From positions 620,001 through 684,000 of the forward strand of contig JAJFIQ010000019.1 in assembly GCA_021774785.1 (NCBI GenBank): a DNA stretch of 64,000 nucleotides. Reading direction: 5' to 3'. Of this stretch, positions 1 to 9,262 are shown piece after piece. Source of the stretch: Emcibacter sp. (lineage in GTDB: Bacteria > Pseudomonadota > Alphaproteobacteria > Sphingomonadales > Emcibacteraceae). Both the position numbers and the translations under genes were made by a program. Within the stretch, counting starts at the first letter, position 1, and each line of letters begins with the position of its first letter. The notes below the pieces were generated by a model. The model was not told the DNA's origin. It ran no database searches and worked only from the letters and a program-made list of their open reading frames with translations.

Positions 1-142
1 GGGTTAATGCCTCTAATGTATCCATTAAATGGTGCAACATAGGCCGTCCGCCAAGCGGGTGTAAGACCTTATGCAAAGCAGATTTCATGCGGGTTCCCTT
101 GCCCGCGGCCAGTATAACAACCGCTAATTCTGTTTCAGACAT
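1..142 (-). CDS. glmU: Bifunctional UDP-GlcNAc pyrophosphorylase / GlcN-1-P acetyltransferase, N-terminal fragment
   Basis: Only the first 47 or so codons lie in the window and the gene continues beyond base 1. The translation begins [19 protein letters not shown], followed by [19 protein letters not shown]. The L-A-A-G-x-G-T-R-M loop is the nucleotide-binding signature of the GlmU uridyltransferase domain, and K-V-L-H-x-L-G-G-R-P-M is the usual GlmU continuation. The complete enzyme makes UDP-N-acetylglucosamine in the cytoplasm for peptidoglycan and lipopolysaccharide. The start at 142 is divergent from gph, with a 118-base shared promoter region. Other sugar nucleotidyltransferases share the loop, but the continuation favours GlmU. 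Confidence 0.85.
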
Positions 143-260
143 AGTATTATTTCTCTTTCCCCATTATGAACTTGCTATATAACTCTAATAATCGTTTTTC
201 AATCAACGTGCCACAATTATACTAATAATATGACAAGATAATTAACAATAAGAGTATTTT

Positions 261-941
261 ATGTCCAACAAGCCCACAGGCATTATTTTTGATCTGGACG
301 GCACATTAGTTGACAGTGCCCGCGACCTTACCGGAGCACTCAATCATGTATTACGACAGGCTAAAAGACCGGAAATGGAAATTTCCCAGGTTCGCCATAT
401 GGTTGGGGACGGGGCAAGGGCCTTGATCATTAAAGGATTCTCAGAAACCGGAATATTGCCCGATAAAGATGGAATTGATTTTATCTTGGAGAATTTTCTG
501 GAATTCTACAGAGAAAATATTGCCGTGCAGACTATCATTTTCCCGGGCGCACTGAAAGTAATTGAAAAATTAGCCCACATGAATATCCCGCTAGGTCTAT
601 GTACTAATAAGCCTATTAAACTAACCGAAAAATTAATGACTGAAATTGGACTTTCCGAATATTTTACTGCTGTCGTTGGAGGCGATAGTTTTGAATATCG
701 CAAACCCGACCCGCGTCACTTGACGTCCGCGCTGGATTTGATGAAAAGCCCGTTTGAGAGGGCCATAATGGTTGGTGATTCTAACAATGATATTTTGGCT
801 GCAAGGGCCGCCAACATACCTGTTATCTGTGTGTCTTTTGGCTATAGTAAAATACCGGTAGCTGACCTAAATCCTGATATAATCATTGATCACTATGCTG
901 ATTTTTTCAACGCCCTTACGGAAATATCAAAACGGCGGTAA
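261..941 (+). CDS. gph: Phosphoglycolate phosphatase, HAD family
   Basis: The 226-residue HAD-superfamily hydrolase starts with the motif-I sequence FDLDGTLVDS (nucleophile D11, acid/base D13), followed by a helical cap of the Gph/PGPase type. Motif II is LCTNKP, motif III is the lysine in YRKPDPRHL, and motif IV is MVGDSNNDILAA. Family knowledge says it removes phosphate from 2-phosphoglycolate, which arises for example during repair of oxidatively damaged DNA ends. Length and motif order match the family, and the divergent glmU neighbour is a common alphaproteobacterial context. Its 3' end overlaps the convergent nucleotidyltransferase gene by 49 bases. HAD substrates are hard to predict, so the exact substrate is inferred. 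Confidence 0.85.
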   Translation: MSNKPTGIIFDLDGTLVDSARDLTGALNHVLRQAKRPEMEISQVRHMVGDGARALIIKGFSETGILPDKDGIDFILENFLEFYRENIAVQTIIFPGALKVIEKLAHMNIPLGLCTNKPIKLTEKLMTEIGLSEYFTAVVGGDSFEYRKPDPRHLTSALDLMKSPFERAIMVGDSNNDILAARAANIPVICVSFGYSKIPVADLNPDIIIDHYADFFNALTEISKRR

Positions 942-1987
942 AGCTTTCGTGTCAAATGCGTCGCCAGCATTACTGGTGGCATGCGCAACAAGTGAGAACG
1001 CATATAGAGCCCGTTGGTAGCTAAGTAATCCGATAGTTTTGAACGATTTTCACCAAAAGGAACCATTACCCGAAATATCATCATATCCATTAGCTTTCTA
1101 ATTAATGGTCCCGGTGCAGATTTTTGTGCCCTTATCATAACGTTATCGGGGATATTTGTATTCAGGAAGTATTTGCAATAATGTAAACAATAAAATACGG
1201 GTCTGCTGAAATTCAACTCCTCTGCCCGGTCCATAAAACGTTGCCAAAAGTCAGGGTCCAGGCTGAACTCTTTGATCATGTCACTTTGTTCCAACAAATT
1301 ACGTAAACTTGCTTTTACGGTTCCATCAACAAATTGATGAACGATACTATGAAGCAGCATATCCTCACGACATAATAGATATATATTATCTTCCAATTGT
1401 TCTGCGGCGTTAATAATCGTGTCAATATTTGGGGAAAGCTTATTGGTTACCTGCAATATGGTGTGATGGACATCTACTTCCACCATTCTGTCCGGGTGCA
1501 GAAGTGGTGGTAATTCATGACCCCATTCCCGGTAATATAACTGATCATATTCGCTCATGGTCTGGCTACCATAACCGGCTATAAATAAATGATTTTCCAC
1601 AATATCCAGATTTTTCTTTGCCACGAGAATATCGATATCAACACTGGTCCGGCCAGCGGCACAATTAAGCCCTTTGGCTATATAGGCACTGCCCTTAACA
1701 AGAATGATCTTTTCTTCAAATTCGAATAAAGCGCGTCGGATCCGGTTGACTTCCCACATGATTTTTCGTTGTCCGGATTCGGCTTCAATTTTTGCATTTA
1801 TAAATATTTTTTGAACTTTACTGGGCAGTTTTTCCAATAATCCTAATTCACTGGCATCATTGGCCAATCGACCGCGTAATTTTAACATTTGAGCTTCAAA
1901 TAGAACGCTGTTCCAGCCTTTAATATCAAGGTCCAGCATAGTCACTGGGTTCTTTAATACCTTCAAAAGGAGGTTATTCTTCATCAT
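893..1987 (-). CDS. Nucleotidyltransferase family protein (NTP_transf_5-like) of an HPr-rel-A type cassette
   Basis: The 364-residue protein resembles the NTP_transf_5 group of minimal nucleotidyltransferases. A VKGSAYIAKGL segment near residue 98 is followed by the metal-binding D-x-D in TSVDIDILVAKK (D117, D119). Further on, a helical half carries the motif LLCREDMLLHSIVHQFVDG, which family members typically show. Such proteins probably transfer a nucleotide to a protein or small molecule, and the substrate is unknown. The start overlaps the stop of the HprK-like gene by four bases, so the two are translationally coupled. It is the last gene of the cassette that begins with the Tat-signal peptide at 3727. 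The family is clear, the function is not. Confidence 0.75.
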   Translation of the reverse strand: MMKNNLLLKVLKNPVTMLDLDIKGWNSVLFEAQMLKLRGRLANDASELGLLEKLPSKVQKIFINAKIEAESGQRKIMWEVNRIRRALFEFEEKIILVKGSAYIAKGLNCAAGRTSVDIDILVAKKNLDIVENHLFIAGYGSQTMSEYDQLYYREWGHELPPLLHPDRMVEVDVHHTILQVTNKLSPNIDTIINAAEQLEDNIYLLCREDMLLHSIVHQFVDGTVKASLRNLLEQSDMIKEFSLDPDFWQRFMDRAEELNFSRPVFYCLHYCKYFLNTNIPDNVMIRAQKSAPGPLIRKLMDMMIFRVMVPFGENRSKLSDYLATNGLYMRSHLLRMPPVMLATHLTRKLYRRFDISVRALKKSA

Positions 1988-2895
1988 GGTAAATTCTCAT
2001 CGATAAATTTATTTACCAGTTGAATGCCTTCTTCAAGTGACGAATAGGTAATCTCACAGGAAATGCATTCTTTTGCAATCTTAGCCAAAGCGTGAAAAGC
2101 TGGCTCCCCGATGTCACCATAATTTGCTGATGATCGCACCAAACGAAAAAAAGCCATTGTTTCGGTCAGCGGTTTGATATCAGGCTTAGCATCCGGATTA
2201 AATACAGGATGAATTACCACACGGGGCTGGACGGTTTTATGCATATTTTCAATGCTTGAATTTGGGGGACGTAAATAACATATTGTTCCCTTTGGTGTCC
2301 CTTCATATTCCCGGCTGAAAGGTTCATCCATACCAACCCATTCCTTTATAACGGAAATAGATTCATTTTTAAGAGAAACGGGTCGGGGATAAGAACATAA
2401 TTCACCACTATCGGCATCCAACAAACCAAATTCATCCGAAAAGAAACGCCAGCCATTATAAGCTAGACCAGCCGATAAAGTACTTTTCCCACTACCAGAA
2501 ATAGCCGGAATGATTAGCCCAACACCATTTTTTTCCAAAACCCCTGCATGAAAGAGAATATGTGTTTTACAGCCGACGGCCATTTGCCAATTCATTCCCA
2601 TTTCAACGGATAAAAGCCCCATTGAAACAGGTAACGGTACATAATTATCATTCATCAACGTATTAATAGCGACTTGCGGTCGCAAATATCGACGATAGAA
2701 ATTCCTACCATATACATCCAGATAAAAATCTGTAATCTCCGGCCCTTCCAAAAAACTATAGCCTTTATATATATGCAAGAAATCATCCCGGATTGAGGGG
2801 AATTTTATGGATATTCTGGTACAAATAGGCCCAATAGACATGAGAATTCCCTGTCCGGACAAATGATGCTTGATGGTGCGGGAATCAAGGCTCAT
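1984..2895 (-). CDS. HprK-related kinase A
   Basis: The 303-residue protein resembles the C-terminal kinase domain of HPr kinase/phosphorylase. A P-loop SGSGKST lies at residues 133-139, followed by GWRFFSDEFGLLD with the acidic pair D154-E155, which corresponds to the HprK metal site. No HPr protein is encoded nearby. In other genomes this family sits beside a PqqD-like protein and an NTP_transf_5 nucleotidyltransferase, as here; that recollection is established knowledge, while the substrate is unknown. I infer that it phosphorylates a protein or peptide partner in the cassette. It starts three bases after the PqqD-like gene ends and overlaps the nucleotidyltransferase start by four bases. 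Confidence 0.8.
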   Translation of the reverse strand: MSLDSRTIKHHLSGQGILMSIGPICTRISIKFPSIRDDFLHIYKGYSFLEGPEITDFYLDVYGRNFYRRYLRPQVAINTLMNDNYVPLPVSMGLLSVEMGMNWQMAVGCKTHILFHAGVLEKNGVGLIIPAISGSGKSTLSAGLAYNGWRFFSDEFGLLDADSGELCSYPRPVSLKNESISVIKEWVGMDEPFSREYEGTPKGTICYLRPPNSSIENMHKTVQPRVVIHPVFNPDAKPDIKPLTETMAFFRLVRSSANYGDIGEPAFHALAKIAKECISCEITYSSLEEGIQLVNKFIDENLP

Positions 2896-2898
2896 TAA

Positions 2899-3228
2899 CT
2901 ACTCTTTATTTTTAAATTTCATTGGTTCAATCAAACCCATCTTATCGAATTCGACAACTGTTCTCTCTACTTGCAGCTTTAACGTGTCAGACAATGGTTG
3001 TTCAAGAATTCCCTGTAATTCATTAATAATTTTGGACAGGCCGCAGGGCTCATCAGTAATAATATCAAAAATTTCACGGGCAAAGTTATTCATGGCCTGA
3101 GAGTGACCGGACCTTCTATCATAAATGATGTGAGCATCATCCATGTTTTTCCATATAAAACAAGCTGTATCCGCAACCTTGAATACAGCCGTTTTAATTA
3201 GATTATTTGTGTTTTTTAAAACAACCAA
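2899..3228 (-). CDS. PqqD-family peptide chaperone of the HPr-rel-A system
   Basis: This small protein of about 109 residues has the winged-helix-like PqqD pattern. A strand pair holding FIWKNMDDAHIIYDRRSGHSQAMNNFAREIFDII (split here only for reading) is followed by helices containing LSKIINELQ and VERTVVEFDKMGLIEP. PqqD proteins bind leader peptides of ribosomally made, modified peptides and deliver them to modifying enzymes. The start is a TTG at 3228 preceded by a G-rich stretch (GGGG), because no in-frame ATG occurs before residue 29. It lies 67 bases downstream of the Tat-signal peptide gene and three bases before the HprK-like kinase, in one apparent transcription unit. Confidence 0.75.
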   Translation of the reverse strand: MVVLKNTNNLIKTAVFKVADTACFIWKNMDDAHIIYDRRSGHSQAMNNFAREIFDIITDEPCGLSKIINELQGILEQPLSDTLKLQVERTVVEFDKMGLIEPMKFKNKE

Positions 3229-3252
3229 TGCCCCGACGTTCCCTAAAGATTA

Positions 3253-3274
3253 ATGAATTTCCGCGTAAATTCAT
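3253..3274 (-). promoter_or_regulatory. Hairpin between the Tat-signal peptide gene and the PqqD-like gene
   Basis: A perfect 8-base inverted repeat (ATGAATTT / AAATTCAT) surrounds a 6-base loop in the 67-base gap between the peptide gene and the enzyme genes. No long T-run follows on the minus strand, so it is more likely an attenuator or mRNA 3'-end stabiliser than a full terminator. It would let the peptide gene be expressed above the downstream genes. Confidence 0.4.
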
Positions 3275-3295
3275 ATCCCATATTCGCCAAGATAT

Positions 3296-3727
3296 CTATA
3301 GGTTTACAGTCAGACCTGTATTTACCACAGAAGTAAGACAGGATACCCCATATAAATCTTCTCTAATAAGATAATCCCAATGCGTCTCGGGGTCCTCACC
3401 CTCAAACTGACGTCCGGTAGTAAGCTGATTGTAGGGGTCAAAAGGTGTTGGGGGCTTATTTGGATCCAAAATATAACCTGTATGGTGATCATCATGACCA
3501 TCATCATGGTGATCATCATCATAATTAGGGACAAAATTTGGAATTAGCAGATTTTCGTGCAATTCCTGCAAGCAGTCGGTTGACATGGCCTGTGCCAGTG
3601 GAATACCACCGTGCAGGGTTAGAGCGAGCGGTGCAATAACTGCTCCAGCCTTCAGGATACTCCGACGTTTGATACGTGCTTCTTCTGCTGCATTTTTCTC
3701 TGCGTCGTCTTTATTCATATTTGTCAT
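3296..3727 (-). CDS. Small Tat-signal protein with a His/Asp-rich segment, candidate substrate of the adjacent cassette
   Basis: I do not recognise this 143-residue protein as a named family. It opens with a charged stretch, then a twin-arginine motif KRRSILKAG (R21, R22), a hydrophobic core to about residue 40 and a likely cleavage site after AQA (residue 47). The mature part has an acidic/histidine run at residues 70-82 with five His and seven Asp, which looks metal-binding, and two cysteines (C52 and one near residue 129). It is the first gene of the minus-strand unit leading into the PqqD-like, HprK-like and nucleotidyltransferase genes. I infer that it is exported by Tat and may be the substrate of these enzymes. 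No PEP-CTERM motif is present. Confidence 0.6.
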   Translation of the reverse strand: MTNMNKDDAEKNAAEEARIKRRSILKAGAVIAPLALTLHGGIPLAQAMSTDCLQELHENLLIPNFVPNYDDDHHDDGHDDHHTGYILDPNKPPTPFDPYNQLTTGRQFEGEDPETHWDYLIREDLYGVSCLTSVVNTGLTVNL

Positions 3728-4063
3728 GACACTTGCCCGTCCAATAAATATTACATAATCTCAATATAACTGACATCCTAACAAAACACCATATTTTTTT
3801 ATAATGTGATTTCTTGTTGTATTAGTTTATGCAAAAATCAGGCCATTGAACAATATTCTTGTATTTCAAAGACTTAAAAAAATGCTCGTTAAAAACTGTA
3901 AAAAATCCTGACAGTTTTCACCATTTTGATACAGTTAATTTACACTTTTAAATCTTGATAGGTTTCTGGTTCTATTGTTTAAATATTATTTTTTTGTTAC
4001 ACAAGTGACATTTGTGAAAACATATTTTACCTTATGCGTCGTTAACCCAAATGATTCAAATAT
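3728..4063. promoter_or_regulatory. 336-base intergenic region between divergent Tat-peptide cassette and phoR
   Basis: This A+T-rich gap must hold the promoters of the minus-strand cassette and of phoR. No ORF of useful size is visible. From 3908 there are 11-base-phased units beginning CTGACAG and separated by A/T-rich tetramers, faintly like a degenerate Pho box; only the first unit is a reasonable match. I see no clear -35/-10 pair on either strand. Confidence 0.35.
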
Positions 4064-5359
4064 ATGGTGAAGCATTACAACATGCCGTTTAATTTCATAA
4101 GATCCATAAAAATTATTTTTATTATATGCCCGCTTATTCTTTTTAGTGTTTATCTTCACATGAAGCATGAAATTAATAATCTGGAGCTCATCATGTTATA
4201 CATGGCGGCTACCCTGCCCGTGATTATAATAATCCGACATTTCCAGAAAAAGCTTAAGCTCCTTAACCTAAAGGCAACGGTACATATAAGCGACAATAAA
4301 GCGACGAGAGAAAATCAACTTCTTTTTATGAATATCATGAAGAGGTTATCTGACCCTATTTTAATTCTAGACAACCTCAACCACATCATTATGGCAAATA
4401 AATCAGCACATGAGCTTTTAGGTAACGATATTCTAAAACAGGAAATTTCTATCTTCATCCGGAATTCCAATCTGACTGAAACTTTGAAAAAAGTCTATAA
4501 AACAGGTAACCCGGAAGATTGTGAACTTAAATTCGGCACACCGGTCACCAAGCATTATTTGAGCCGTATTCATCTGTTTAATCTCGACAATGACAATGCA
4601 GAAAATTCCAAAAAATATTTGTTTTTAACACTATATGATGTGTCCACCATTAAAAATACTGACAAAATGCGGGTTGATTTTGTGGCTAATGCAAGCCATG
4701 AACTCAGAACGCCATTATCATCTATTCTTGGGTTCGTAGAAACGCTGCAGGGGCCGGCCCGTGACGATACTGAAGCCCACGAACGCTTTCTTAAAATCAT
4801 GTATGATGAGGCCAGCCGAATGAGCCGGCTGATAGAAGATTTGCTGTCCCTGTCAAGGATTGAAAGGGATGAGCATATTCCACCAACCGGAAGCGTTAAT
4901 CTGGTCCCCTTGATCAAAAATGTGATTAATGTTCTTGAACCACAGGCTAAGGATAAAGATATAACAATTTCCTTTTTCCACAACGCTTTGAAAGAAATAA
5001 CAGGGGACTATGACCAACTCACTCAGGTAGTTCAGAATCTAATTGAGAATGCCGTTAAATATGGCAATGAAAAAACTGAAATTAAAATTACATGTGACGA
5101 AAGTATCATGCCACCACCTCTCAACACCAAGGAAGTCACCATTACCATCGTCAATGAAGGCCCCGGCATTCCGGCAAAGCACTTACCACGTCTGATGGAG
5201 CGGTTTTACCGCGTTGATTCTGCCCGATCACGAAGTCTGGGGGGAACCGGCCTTGGGCTTGCCATTGTGAAACACATCATTCAACGTCACCGGGGACGCA
5301 TCTTCTTTGAAAGCAAGATCAATGCGACGACAAAAGTAACAGTTTCCATACCCTTGTAA
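4064..5359 (+). CDS. phoR: Phosphate regulon sensor histidine kinase PhoR
   Basis: The 431-residue membrane kinase has two N-terminal hydrophobic segments (about residues 13-32 and 40-58). A PAS-like region follows (about 85-195, with LSDPILILDNLNHIIMANKS). The HisKA motif NASHELRTPLSS has its phospho-acceptor at H212. The HATPase domain shows the N box NLIENAVKYGN, the G1 box NEGPGIP and the G2 box GGTGLGLAIVKH. PhoR senses phosphate status through the Pst transporter and PhoU and phosphorylates PhoB. It opens the plus-strand set phoR-pstSCAB-phoU-phoB, which makes the assignment firm. An alternative ATG at 4082 would shorten the N-terminus by six residues. Confidence 0.92.
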   Translation: MVKHYNMPFNFIRSIKIIFIICPLILFSVYLHMKHEINNLELIMLYMAATLPVIIIIRHFQKKLKLLNLKATVHISDNKATRENQLLFMNIMKRLSDPILILDNLNHIIMANKSAHELLGNDILKQEISIFIRNSNLTETLKKVYKTGNPEDCELKFGTPVTKHYLSRIHLFNLDNDNAENSKKYLFLTLYDVSTIKNTDKMRVDFVANASHELRTPLSSILGFVETLQGPARDDTEAHERFLKIMYDEASRMSRLIEDLLSLSRIERDEHIPPTGSVNLVPLIKNVINVLEPQAKDKDITISFFHNALKEITGDYDQLTQVVQNLIENAVKYGNEKTEIKITCDESIMPPPLNTKEVTITIVNEGPGIPAKHLPRLMERFYRVDSARSRSLGGTGLGLAIVKHIIQRHRGRIFFESKINATTKVTVSIPL

Positions 5360-5377
5360 GCATATTTTTCTCACATG

Positions 5378-5395
5378 CTGTCATAAATGTTTAAC
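5378..5395 (+). promoter_or_regulatory. Pho-box-like PhoB site before pstS
   Basis: CTGTCATAAAT at 5378-5388 matches the first half and spacer of the Pho box perfectly. The second 7-base unit at the expected 11-base phase (GTTTAAC) matches at only three positions. A third phased unit at 5400 starts CTGC. The site lies about 85-100 bases before the preferred pstS start, where PhoB activation would be expected. Confidence 0.5.
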
Positions 5396-5479
5396 AAATC
5401 TGCCGCAAATAGGTAATTATCACTCGTTAACGTCCAAATCGTAGTGAATGACCTACAGTTACCATTTTGGAGAAAAGAC

Positions 5480-6517
5480 GTGTTAACAAAAAATATATCA
5501 GTATTTCTAGGTGCCACAGTATTAACCGTGGCTATCATATCCCCCGCTATCGCCCGAGACCAAATCCGAATTGTTGGATCATCAACAGTTTATCCTTTCG
5601 CAACTGCCGTAGCAGAAGAATTCGGTAGAAAAACTAAATTCAAGACACCGGTTGTGGAAAGCACAGGCTCCGGCGGAGGACTAAAGCTTTTCTGTGAGGG
5701 TGTTGGTGAGAAATATCCAGACATAACCAATGCATCCCGTAGTATTAAGTCCTCAGAAATCAAACGTTGTGCCAAAAATGGCATCACGGAAATCGTTGAA
5801 GTTAAGGTTGGCTTTGATGGTATTGTTATTGCCAATTCCAAGAAATCCGAAAGGATAGAATTGAGCTTGAGAGATATATGGACCGCACTGGCGACTGAAA
5901 TATCTGTTAATGGGGTAATGGTAACTAACCCCCATAAATTCTGGAATCAGGTAAATCCTACCTTGCCGCATAAAAAAATTGAAATTCTTGGCCCTCCACC
6001 CACATCCGGTACACGGGATGCCTTTATGGAGCTTGCTATGGAAGGAGGTTGTAAGACATATCCTGAAATCAAAGCAATTAAAAAGAAGAACAAGAAAGCC
6101 TATAAAGCCATTTGTCACACAATTCGTGAAGACGGTGCTTATATTGAGGCTGGTGAGAATGACAATTTGATCGTTGGCAAACTTCAAGCAAACCCTGATG
6201 CTTTCGGCATATTTGGTTACAGCTTTCTAGATCAAAATAGTGACGTTATCCAAGGAAACCTCGTTAACGGTAAAGAGCCTACATTCGATAATATTTCAAA
6301 TGGCAGCTACCCGGTATCCCGTTCATTATACTTCTACATAAAAAAAGCGCATGTGGATAAAACATCTGGAATCAGAGAATATCTGAAAGAATTTACCAGT
6401 GAAAATGCTATGGGTGAATATGGCTATTTGGCAGAAAAGGGATTGATACCGATGCCAACAGCCGAATTGGAAAAAATGCGTGAAGACGCAAAGAATCTTG
6501 TTACATTATCAAATTGA
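5480..6517 (+). CDS. pstS: Phosphate ABC transporter substrate-binding protein PstS
   Basis: This is a periplasmic phosphate-binding protein of about 345 residues. I prefer the GTG at 5480 because GGAG at 5469-5472 is correctly spaced before it, and it yields a clean signal peptide (hydrophobic core ISVFLGATVLTVAIISPAIA, then ARDQ). The in-frame ATG at 5444 would add 12 residues. The mature protein begins with IRIVGSSTVYPF, shows ESTGSGGGLKLFCEG, and has the phosphate-loop segment PPPTSGTRDAF, all typical of the PstS-like PBP family. It delivers phosphate to PstCA. A perfect hairpin follows the gene, before pstC. Confidence 0.92.
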   Translation: MLTKNISVFLGATVLTVAIISPAIARDQIRIVGSSTVYPFATAVAEEFGRKTKFKTPVVESTGSGGGLKLFCEGVGEKYPDITNASRSIKSSEIKRCAKNGITEIVEVKVGFDGIVIANSKKSERIELSLRDIWTALATEISVNGVMVTNPHKFWNQVNPTLPHKKIEILGPPPTSGTRDAFMELAMEGGCKTYPEIKAIKKKNKKAYKAICHTIREDGAYIEAGENDNLIVGKLQANPDAFGIFGYSFLDQNSDVIQGNLVNGKEPTFDNISNGSYPVSRSLYFYIKKAHVDKTSGIREYLKEFTSENAMGEYGYLAEKGLIPMPTAELEKMREDAKNLVTLSN

Positions 6518-6529
6518 TAAAACGAATGT

Positions 6530-6553
6530 CAAAGCCGGAGTTTTCCGGCTTTG
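6530..6553 (+). promoter_or_regulatory. Intercistronic hairpin between pstS and pstC
   Basis: A perfect 10-base stem (CAAAGCCGGA / TCCGGCTTTG) encloses a 4-base loop, 13 bases after the pstS stop. No T-run follows, so it is more likely a 3'-end stabiliser or partial attenuator that raises pstS mRNA relative to pstCAB than a complete terminator. Confidence 0.65.
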
Positions 6554-6582
6554 ACCCTAATTAACAGTATGGTTTACGTGGA

Positions 6583-7965
6583 ATGAACAGCTACATCATT
6601 ATTATTTTACTAATGTTGATTTCAACGATCTCATATATCATGGGTCGAAAAAAAGCTGTGTTGTCGGTGAATGGTAAAATAAGGGATTTACATTCCCTCC
6701 CCGGTCATTATGGATGGTTTACGGCGCTAACAAGTTTTCTGCCCGGATTATTTATAGTATTAGTTTGGATTATTTTTGGCAGCAATCTGGTTGATAATTT
6801 CACACTCGCAGCACTTGGTGACGAAATTCGCAGTTTATCAAATTTCGATCGTGCCCTTTATATGAATGACATTCACAATCTTGCAATTGGGGATGCGATA
6901 TCCAGACCCCTTACAAATTCTTTGAATAATGCCACAAATTTTTATCTGCGAACTCAGAATAATCTCCTATGGATATTCACCCTATCAGCCATTGGTGTAT
7001 CTTCACTTTTAGCCATATTTAGTTTTAGAAAAATTTCTCCAGAATTGCGATCCCGTAACCTGGTTGAACGCCTAATTATAATTATGCTTGTTATCAGTTC
7101 CTCCATTGCAATTTTAATAACGATTGGGATTGTATCCTCATTAATTGTCGAGACATTGCGGTTTTTAGAACATGTTTCCCTGTCAGAGTTCCTTTTGGGA
7201 TTAAAATGGAGTCCCCAAACGGCCCTTCGTGCAGATCAGGTGGGTAGTTCCGGATCATTCGGAGCCATACCCTTATTCACCGGAACTTTGCTCATAACAT
7301 TTATCGCTTTGCTGGTTGCTGTTCCTGTAGGCTTATTCTCCGCCATATATATGACAGAATTTGCCAGTCCCAATGCCCGAATATTTTTCAAACCTCTGCT
7401 TGAACTTCTGGCTGGTATACCAACCGTTGTTTATGGTTTCTTTGCGGCTTTGGTCGTGGCTCCGGTAATCCGCAATTCTGGTGAGGTTATCGGACTTGAG
7501 ATTGCATCTGAAAGTGCACTTGCAGCAGGTTTAGTAATGGGTATTATGATTATACCGTTAATTTCTTCGCTGTCAGATGATGTTATTTCCTCTGTACCGC
7601 AGAGCCTGCGCGATGCTTCATACGGGCTAGGTGCTACCAAAACAGAAACTATAGTGAATGTCATACTCCCCTCTGCCCTACCCGGCATTGTCAGTGCCTT
7701 TTTACTGGCCGCTTCGCGGGCCATTGGGGAAACAATGATTGTTGTCATGGCGGCTGGGATGGCCGCTAATCTGACTGCAAACCCTCTGGAAGCCGTTACT
7801 ACGGTAACGGTTCAAATTTTAGCTCTTTTAACGGGTGATCAGGAATTTGACAGCGCGAAAACTCTGTCAGCCTTTGCCCTTGGACTGGCTCTTTTTACCA
7901 TAACCTTATTTTTGAACTTCATTGCACTTAAATTAGTAAGAAAATATCAGGAACAATATGACTGA
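6583..7965 (+). CDS. pstC: Phosphate ABC transporter permease PstC
   Basis: The 460-residue inner-membrane permease is longer than E. coli PstC, with an N-terminal extension holding two or three extra hydrophobic segments (about residues 3-20, 43-65 and 130-150). The transport core contains PLFTGTLLITFIALLVAVPVG and the cytoplasmic coupling (EAA-type) region SLRDASYGLGATKTETIVNVILPSALPGI. With PstA it forms the phosphate channel. Its end overlaps the start of pstA by eight bases, so the pair is translationally coupled. Such extended PstC proteins are common in alphaproteobacteria. Confidence 0.93.
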   Translation: MNSYIIIILLMLISTISYIMGRKKAVLSVNGKIRDLHSLPGHYGWFTALTSFLPGLFIVLVWIIFGSNLVDNFTLAALGDEIRSLSNFDRALYMNDIHNLAIGDAISRPLTNSLNNATNFYLRTQNNLLWIFTLSAIGVSSLLAIFSFRKISPELRSRNLVERLIIIMLVISSSIAILITIGIVSSLIVETLRFLEHVSLSEFLLGLKWSPQTALRADQVGSSGSFGAIPLFTGTLLITFIALLVAVPVGLFSAIYMTEFASPNARIFFKPLLELLAGIPTVVYGFFAALVVAPVIRNSGEVIGLEIASESALAAGLVMGIMIIPLISSLSDDVISSVPQSLRDASYGLGATKTETIVNVILPSALPGIVSAFLLAASRAIGETMIVVMAAGMAANLTANPLEAVTTVTVQILALLTGDQEFDSAKTLSAFALGLALFTITLFLNFIALKLVRKYQEQYD

Positions 7966-9262
7966 CCTAAAGCAAAATACTGCCTCATTAAAAAGTCAGG
8001 CCCGGTTAAAAAAGCGTTATAGGAAAGAACGCTTATTCAAGGCTATTGGTTTGTCAGGGCTTTTAAGTGGCCTGCTGGCTCTGACTATTATGATGATCAG
8101 TATATTGAGTACGGGCTTAAGTGGGTTTTCGGAAACCAGAATAAAGTTTGATATTTATATGGACCCTGAAATTATTGGGTCTACCGACGGATATGATGAA
8201 ACAGAATACCGTGACCATATCGCCCAGATTAATCATAGCACGCTAATACGCAACAGCCTGAAAATAAAATTTTCCGATGTCAAAGGCCGTCGAGATGTCT
8301 TCAATCTGCAAAAGTTAGTCAGCTCCGGCTCACGGGAAGAAGTCAGAAGGTTATTGATAGAAGATAAAAATCTCATCGGTAAAACAATTGCCATGGATCT
8401 GTTAGCTTCCAGTAATGTAGATATGTATGTCAAAGGGCAGATTTCCCGCGATGTTAATCAATCAGAGCGCAAAATATCAGATAGGCAACTGGCTTGGCTT
8501 GATATACTTGAATCAGAAGGGCGCATTCTCAAGGGATTTAACTGGAAATTTTTCTCAACTGGAGATTCCCGAGAACCTGAACTGGCAGGCATTTTGGGTG
8601 CGGCCATGGGGTCATTCCTGACTTTGCTAGTGACACTTCTGATAGCCTTTCCCATTGGCGTTGCTTCTGCACTATATCTGGAAGAATTTGCACCCCATAA
8701 TAAATGGACTGATTTAATAGAAATAAATATCAATAATCTGGCGGCAGTCCCGTCGATTATCTTCGGACTTCTTGGGCTTGCTATTTTCCTTAATGTGTTC
8801 AATATGCCCCGCTCTGCCCCCTTGGTCGGAGGCTTGACATTGGCCCTGATGACATTGCCTACCATTATAATATCCTCTCGAGCTGCTATCCGCGCTGTGC
8901 CGCCGTCTATTCGTGATGCAGCCATTGGTATGGGGGCCTCTAATTTGCAAGCTCAATTTCATCATGTCCTGCCGCTGAGTATGCCGGGAATTATGACGGG
9001 CACAATTATCGGGATGGCACAGGCTCTGGGTGAAACGGCGCCTCTTCTGATGATTGGCATGGTTGCCTTTATCGTTGACGTTCCACAGGGCGTGCTTGAT
9101 GCTGCGACTGCCCTGCCGGTACAGATATTTCTCTGGGCAGATAGCCCTGAGCGCGGATTTATGGAAAAAACCTCCGCAGCAATTATTGTGCTTTTAGTGT
9201 TTTTAATTATGATGAATGGTCTTGCTATCTGGGTGAGACATAAATTTGAAAAACGTTGGTAA
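7958..9262 (+). CDS. pstA: Phosphate ABC transporter permease PstA
   Basis: The 434-residue inner-membrane permease has a cytoplasmic Lys/Arg-rich N-terminus and a first membrane helix at about 30-55. A long non-membrane insert of roughly 150 residues precedes the core, resembling the DUF3333-type domain seen in alphaproteobacterial PstA. The core holds GSFLTLLVTLLIAFPIGVASALYLEEF and the coupling region SIRDAAIGMGASNLQAQFHHVLPLSMPGIM. It pairs with PstC and is energised by PstB. It overlaps pstC by eight bases. Confidence 0.93.
   Translation: MTDLKQNTASLKSQARLKKRYRKERLFKAIGLSGLLSGLLALTIMMISILSTGLSGFSETRIKFDIYMDPEIIGSTDGYDETEYRDHIAQINHSTLIRNSLKIKFSDVKGRRDVFNLQKLVSSGSREEVRRLLIEDKNLIGKTIAMDLLASSNVDMYVKGQISRDVNQSERKISDRQLAWLDILESEGRILKGFNWKFFSTGDSREPELAGILGAAMGSFLTLLVTLLIAFPIGVASALYLEEFAPHNKWTDLIEININNLAAVPSIIFGLLGLAIFLNVFNMPRSAPLVGGLTLALMTLPTIIISSRAAIRAVPPSIRDAAIGMGASNLQAQFHHVLPLSMPGIMTGTIIGMAQALGETAPLLMIGMVAFIVDVPQGVLDAATALPVQIFLWADSPERGFMEKTSAAIIVLLVFLIMMNGLAIWVRHKFEKRW

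Follow-up and report, generated by a model that had tools for sequence, protein, structure and literature searches.

Organisation of the cassette

The window, i.e., the whole stretch of 64,000 nucleotides of Emcibacter sp. DNA that was analysed, carries on its minus strand a cassette of four genes which encode, in this order, a peptide with a Tat-type signal, a PqqD-like protein, an HprK-related kinase A and a nucleotidyltransferase of the NTP_transf_5 type (Table 1). The open reading frames (ORFs), coordinates and tight couplings given for this group in the initial annotation are all present: 3 bases separate the PqqD-like and kinase genes, the kinase and nucleotidyltransferase genes overlap by 4 bases, and 67 bases lie between the peptide and PqqD-like genes. 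The cassette is flanked on one side by a phosphoglycolate-phosphatase-like HAD gene (gph), with a GlmU fragment beyond it at the edge of the window, and on the opposite side by genes for a PhoR-like kinase and for PstS, PstC and PstA, several of these flanking-gene assignments scoring under the curated equivalog cut-offs. The order glmU, gph, cassette, phoR, pstS-pstC-pstA (positions 1-9262 of the window) is common to an 880-kb plasmid of Sphingomonas parapaucimobilis (L068). Upstream of the peptide gene, a scan for a Pho box with one consensus gave scores no higher than those of shuffled sequence.

Table 1. Features of the four-gene cassette (positions within the window).
Feature	Position	Strand	Description and basis
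Tat-signal precursor peptide, proposed substrate	3727-3296	-	143 aa, ATG start; ORF list
Leader, residues 1-47	3587..3727	-	RR 21-22, GAVIAPLALTL core, AQA cleavage-like site; alignments A2, A3
Cys52, first Cys past the leader	3572..3574	-	no variation across A3 and A6, alignments of chosen class I peptides
Asp/His run, residues 70-82	3482..3520	-	lineage-specific variable middle, unconserved in relatives
SCLTS, residues 129-133	3329..3343	-	C130 and candidate phosphoacceptor S133; [ST]CxxS counts
PqqD-like protein	3228-2899	-	109 aa, TTG start; TIGR04353 and PF05402 scores
HprK-related kinase A	2895-1984	-	303 aa; TIGR04352
NTP_transf_5 nucleotidyltransferase, Pol-beta-type	1987-893	-	364 aa; PF14907

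The peptide possesses both the twin-arginine signal and the Asp/His run that had been noticed in it at the outset. The twin arginine is embedded in the sequence KRRSILK and is followed by a hydrophobic stretch and by the cleavage-like site at residues 45-47. Since the Pfam TAT_signal model matches the peptide weakly (11.9 bits vs. a cut-off of 22.7), its assignment to the Tat pathway is based on the RR motif, on the conservation of this motif in the relatives and on the TatC gene encoded by the same genome. No Pfam or NCBIfam family was recovered for the ten peptides searched, i.e., the window peptide and nine relatives, and the equivalent ORF is annotated merely as "hypothetical protein" in two plasmid records. 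The predicted structure of the peptide is poor (pLDDT 61), and its fold is unreadable from the model.

The three enzymes

The kinase matches TIGR04352 with 259.1 bits (cut-off 200). It resembles the HPr(Ser) kinase/phosphatases in that its profile aligns with the solved HPr kinases 1ko7 and 1jb1 over the region of the His, the P-loop and the Asp, which is conserved across 17 kinases, but it falls far below the cut-off of TIGR00679 (13.8 bits vs. 240). The PqqD-like protein scores slightly below the cut-off of TIGR04353 (32.4 bits vs. 35) and slightly above that of PF05402 (23.6 bits vs. 23.4). The nucleotidyltransferase matches PF14907 with 143 bits, its KG, DxD and third Asp are invariant, and its structure is predicted confidently (pLDDT 92). 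No solved structure related to it by sequence was found; the best structural matches of the model, with weak E-values (0.012 at best), are nucleotidyltransferases, including MenT1 and ANT enzymes, and support a predicted nucleotidyltransferase fold rather than any substrate.

Recurrence of the peptide gene at kinase loci

Kinase loci were collected from 60 related genomes and from a scan of named genomes (Emcibacter, Kordiimonas, Sphingomonas, Blastomonas, Kiloniellaceae, Nitrosomonas, Methylococcaceae, Chromatiaceae and Magnetococcales), giving 95 loci in total, 90 of them with at least 900 bp upstream. The peptides upstream were found in three passes, by regular expressions and by eye, by an automatic hydrophobicity picker, and by a leader profile. 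With this profile a leader ORF occurs upstream at 88 of the 90 loci, among Alpha-, Beta- and Gammaproteobacteria and Magnetococcales, a figure that measures consistency and flatters the sensitivity of the profile on cassette peptides, because most of the same loci served for its training. The two exceptions are L085, which holds a recognisable peptide without its start, and L112, where no peptide was found. Seven loci had been omitted from the training, namely six at which the automatic picker took a wrong ORF and L112, where it also took one, and all were recovered by the profile except L112. No further match occurs among the 4,324 ORFs of the kinase loci, and the window's own genome contains a single match. 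A PqqD-profile ORF stands in the expected position at 86 of the 90 loci, and a relative of the nucleotidyltransferase was found by blastp at all 82 scanned loci (82/82). Recurring at 88 of 90 loci, the arrangement exceeds what chance would give, and the short Tat-signal ORF that the initial annotation had proposed to look for beside other kinase/PqqD pairs is found there with a conserved leader. One cassette (L033, in genome G034) contains two peptide genes, one of which has a long Asn/Gly-rich middle.

The surroundings of the cassette vary. A phoR gene lies near 41 and a gph gene near 40 of the 82 loci, a Sphingomonas replicon among them. Of 50 non-alphaproteobacterial loci, 12 have an Asn-synthetase-like gene nearby and 8 have glycosyltransferases. 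In scanned non-alphaproteobacterial representatives an XrtA/PEP-CTERM glycosyltransferase and an export protein score above cut-off, and the copies L113, L183 and L207 are located within or near XrtA/PEP-CTERM exopolysaccharide gene clusters.

Co-distribution and unlinked copies

The distribution of leader and kinase was followed in three genome samples, with thresholds fixed ahead of each run (the curated cut-off or an E-value of 1e-30 for the kinase, 1e-5 for the leader). Among 60 relatives the kinase scores above cut-off in 35 and the leader occurs in 34, all within those 35; none of the other 25 has a leader match, although one of them (G037) carries a kinase slightly under the cut-off and a diverged Tat peptide, and thus misses both cut-offs instead of being a true negative. 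In the class sample (289 genomes), the kinase was detected in 9 genomes and the leader in 10. Eight of these leaders adjoin the kinase, that of G164 stands on a contig ending right after a PqqD ORF, and that of G194 is an isolated weak match (L182:108-452) in a genome devoid of the kinase; in the ninth kinase genome the leader ORF lies downstream of the nucleotidyltransferase. Among 397 genomes of the phylum, the kinase occurs in 51 and the leader in 37, all within these 51. The opposite case, a peptide widespread without the enzymes, was not encountered, none of the 346 kinase-free phylum genomes matching the leader profile. The searches of 289 and 397 genomes scored part of the first-look candidates, the samples overlap, and the genomes and clusters share ancestry, so that Fisher p-values are taken as descriptive.

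In six genomes the peptide and the three enzymes are separated, both being retained. Distances of 164 kb (G502) and 280 kb (G687) separate the peptide, which adjoins phoR, from the trio, which adjoins gph; the same split is distributed over separate contigs in G537, and G408, G401 and G360 also keep both parts away from each other. In addition, G056 possesses a second peptide gene away from its cassette (L180:6303-6923), with the same leader and a GISCIISI tail. Judged from the three samples and the unlinked copies, the Tat peptide is very probably the cognate partner or substrate of the three enzymes, in agreement with what had been proposed from the window only.

Conserved residues of the peptide

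The middle of the peptide is hypervariable and rich in Gly, Asp, Ser and Asn, whereas the leader, two Cys and a Ser close to the C-terminus are kept in most members. The Asp/His run, named by the initial annotation as a possible conserved core, is rejected as such, being unconserved in the relatives; conservation is seen instead in the leader, in a Cys that follows it and, in most cases, in the motif [ST]CxxS. Long poly-Asp runs, which possibly bind metals, occur in the middle of the peptides at L103-L110, L065 and L059, in several lineages. Residues R22, C52, C130 and S133 are invariant in an alignment of 30 class I sequences, and R21, R22, C52 and S133 in another of 23, the rows of both having been chosen from class I, with class II (see below) and Nitrosomonas left out, so that the invariance of the tail is partly a matter of selection.

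The motif [ST]CxxS near the C-terminus was retained after viewing the sequences, among four patterns tried ([STG]CxxS/A, [ST]CxxS, CxxS and A[YF]xS), and occurs in 53 of 71 clusters vs. 3% after shuffling; CxxS alone reaches 58 of 71, for a shuffling expectation of 19%. Among 23 leader ORFs from loci fetched once the motif was fixed, 14 contain it and 9 do not. The Ser of the motif is located 2-49 residues from the C-terminal end (median 8). All of the 53 [ST]CxxS clusters also carry the leader-proximal Cys, as do 10 of the remaining 18, and this co-occurrence of the two Cys suggests a disulfide bridge, with the reservation that half of the eight clusters without the leader-proximal Cys are kin of the Nitrosomonas type, which leaves few independent losses. 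The peptides of this latter type have lost both Cys and retained the Ser.

A possible second class of substrates

All 14 leader-negative kinase genomes of the phylum sample (15 loci) were read by eye. L206-L208 each hold a class I peptide with the C-terminal sequence SCWTS or SCWFS. At L204, L210, L212 and L214-L218 there is an ORF that carries an RR and a stretch of GYWKN-like or related sequence; these ORFs are designated class II, L217 being a doubtful member and several of them scoring poorly on the leader profile. L209 and L211 possess an RR-bearing ORF belonging to neither class, and no convincing candidate was recognised by eye at L205 and L213. Proteins with an RR signal and a GYWKN-like stretch replacing [ST]CxxS likewise stand by the same enzymes at L067, L133 and L184. 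Class II, possibly a second class of substrates of the same enzymes, is to be taken as a lead and not yet as a family, because its ORFs were picked by eye. In so far as class II belongs to the system, the Ser of the motif cannot be the sole target.

Relation to known systems

In NCBIfam, the enzymes carry the label "HPr-rel-A system", comprising the TIGR04352 kinase and the TIGR04353 PqqD-family peptide chaperone. The cassette resembles this system by its kinase, above cut-off, its PqqD-like protein, slightly below, and the adjoining PF14907 nucleotidyltransferase; it differs by the recurring Tat-signal peptide family identified here, ten members of which match no Pfam or NCBIfam model. No paper on HPr-rel-A or on the HprK-related kinase was found in the literature searched, which comprises few subscription journals, and neither a family model nor a paper naming the peptide was met with, in line with the initial description of the trio as lacking an assigned product.

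The closest parallel is offered by lasso peptides, whose precursors are phosphorylated on the C-terminal Ser by an HPr-type kinase (reviews PMC9266682, PMC8498205). In the case of pseudomycoidin, a nucleotidyltransferase homologue then puts hexoses on the phosphate, its true activity being still open (same reviews). The clusters of paeninodin and pseudomycoidin share with the present cassette a PqqD-like B1 protein, an HPr-type kinase and a nucleotidyltransferase homologue, PsmK and PsmN being likened by description, not by sequence. In contrast, neither a transglutaminase-like B2 protease nor an Asn-synthetase-like lasso cyclase occurs among the neighbouring genes of the window, the precursor bears a Tat signal, and the Ser lies at a variable distance from the C-terminus instead of at the very end, as in the lasso kinase target (PMC8498205). 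A plasmid search for the lasso-cluster nucleotidyltransferase returned only the HPr-rel-A-type system. Another parallel is provided by the bufferins and other MNIO-modified peptides, in which the export signal of the precursor may double as a recognition sequence (PMC12452194, PMC12710340); these differ by a Sec instead of a Tat signal, and by modifying enzymes that are iron-dependent and oxidative and have Cys as their main target.

Proposed mode of action

Taken together, the four genes could form a single peptide-modification and export system, a reading to which a probability of about 0.55 is given. Its observed basis is the gene order, the homology of the enzymes, the co-inheritance of the peptide with the kinase, the conserved residues and the active-site motifs. 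In the cytoplasm, the PqqD-like protein would bind the Tat leader, the kinase would phosphorylate the Ser of the near-C-terminal [ST]CxxS (S133 in the window), and the nucleotidyltransferase would add a hexose or a nucleotide to this phosphate as a cap. The Tat pathway would then export the modified product; once it is in the periplasm, its C52 and C130 may form a pair. This order is modelled on the lasso-peptide reviews for the kinase and capping steps, and on the bufferin work for the export signal used as a recognition sequence. Phosphorylation or nucleotidylation prior to export is plausible, given the intact active-site motifs and the lasso precedent. S133 has about an even chance of being the residue targeted by the kinase, and the capping of its phosphate by the nucleotidyltransferase is put forward somewhat more tentatively. 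Counting against this reading are the class II ORFs and the 9 of 23 later peptides that lack the motif, as well as the position of the Ser, which lasso kinases target at the very C-terminus (PMC8498205).

A cognate Tat peptide modified by another chemistry or at another site is less likely, even though it is the most serious of the alternatives. The peptide would then be nucleotidylated, for instance, or altered at a Ser, Thr or Asp within its low-complexity middle, and [ST]CxxS would be a structural disulfide motif. The co-occurrence of the two Cys, the composition of the middle, the likeness of the nucleotidyltransferase model to MenT1 and ANT enzymes, and the class II ORFs, which stand beside all of the enzymes without the motif, are in line with this idea; however, the Nitrosomonas-type peptides keep the Ser despite the loss of both Cys, and the middle is not conserved.

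It is improbable that the enzymes modify an envelope polysaccharide or a sugar nucleotide, with the Tat protein as an exported accessory factor: some non-alphaproteobacterial copies do neighbour XrtA/PEP-CTERM exopolysaccharide genes, and a GlmU fragment lies at the edge of the window, but the set includes a PqqD-family protein, a leader-binding type, and about half of the scanned loci, alphaproteobacterial ones, adjoin gph and phoR instead. Still less credit is given to chance neighbours held together by vertical synteny. The order glmU, gph, cassette, phoR, pst is indeed old and widespread in Alphaproteobacteria, yet the set persists without it in Beta- and Gammaproteobacteria, unlinked copies are both kept, and the leader is missing from the 346 kinase-free genomes of the phylum sample.

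According to the preferred reading of a single modification and export system, the enzyme set named by NCBI as peptide-handling now has a specific and widely conserved candidate substrate family, whose leader is defined and in which one residue stands out as the candidate site. It is tentatively proposed that these are exported, modified peptides of a new class, that a Tat signal doubles as the recognition leader of the kinase and the nucleotidyltransferase, that a phosphate-linked group would be placed on a near-C-terminal Ser before export, and that one set of enzymes may serve at least two dissimilar types of substrate. If this chemistry proves true, export signals would serve as modification leaders in the Tat pathway as well as in the Sec pathway, where the bufferins provide the example.
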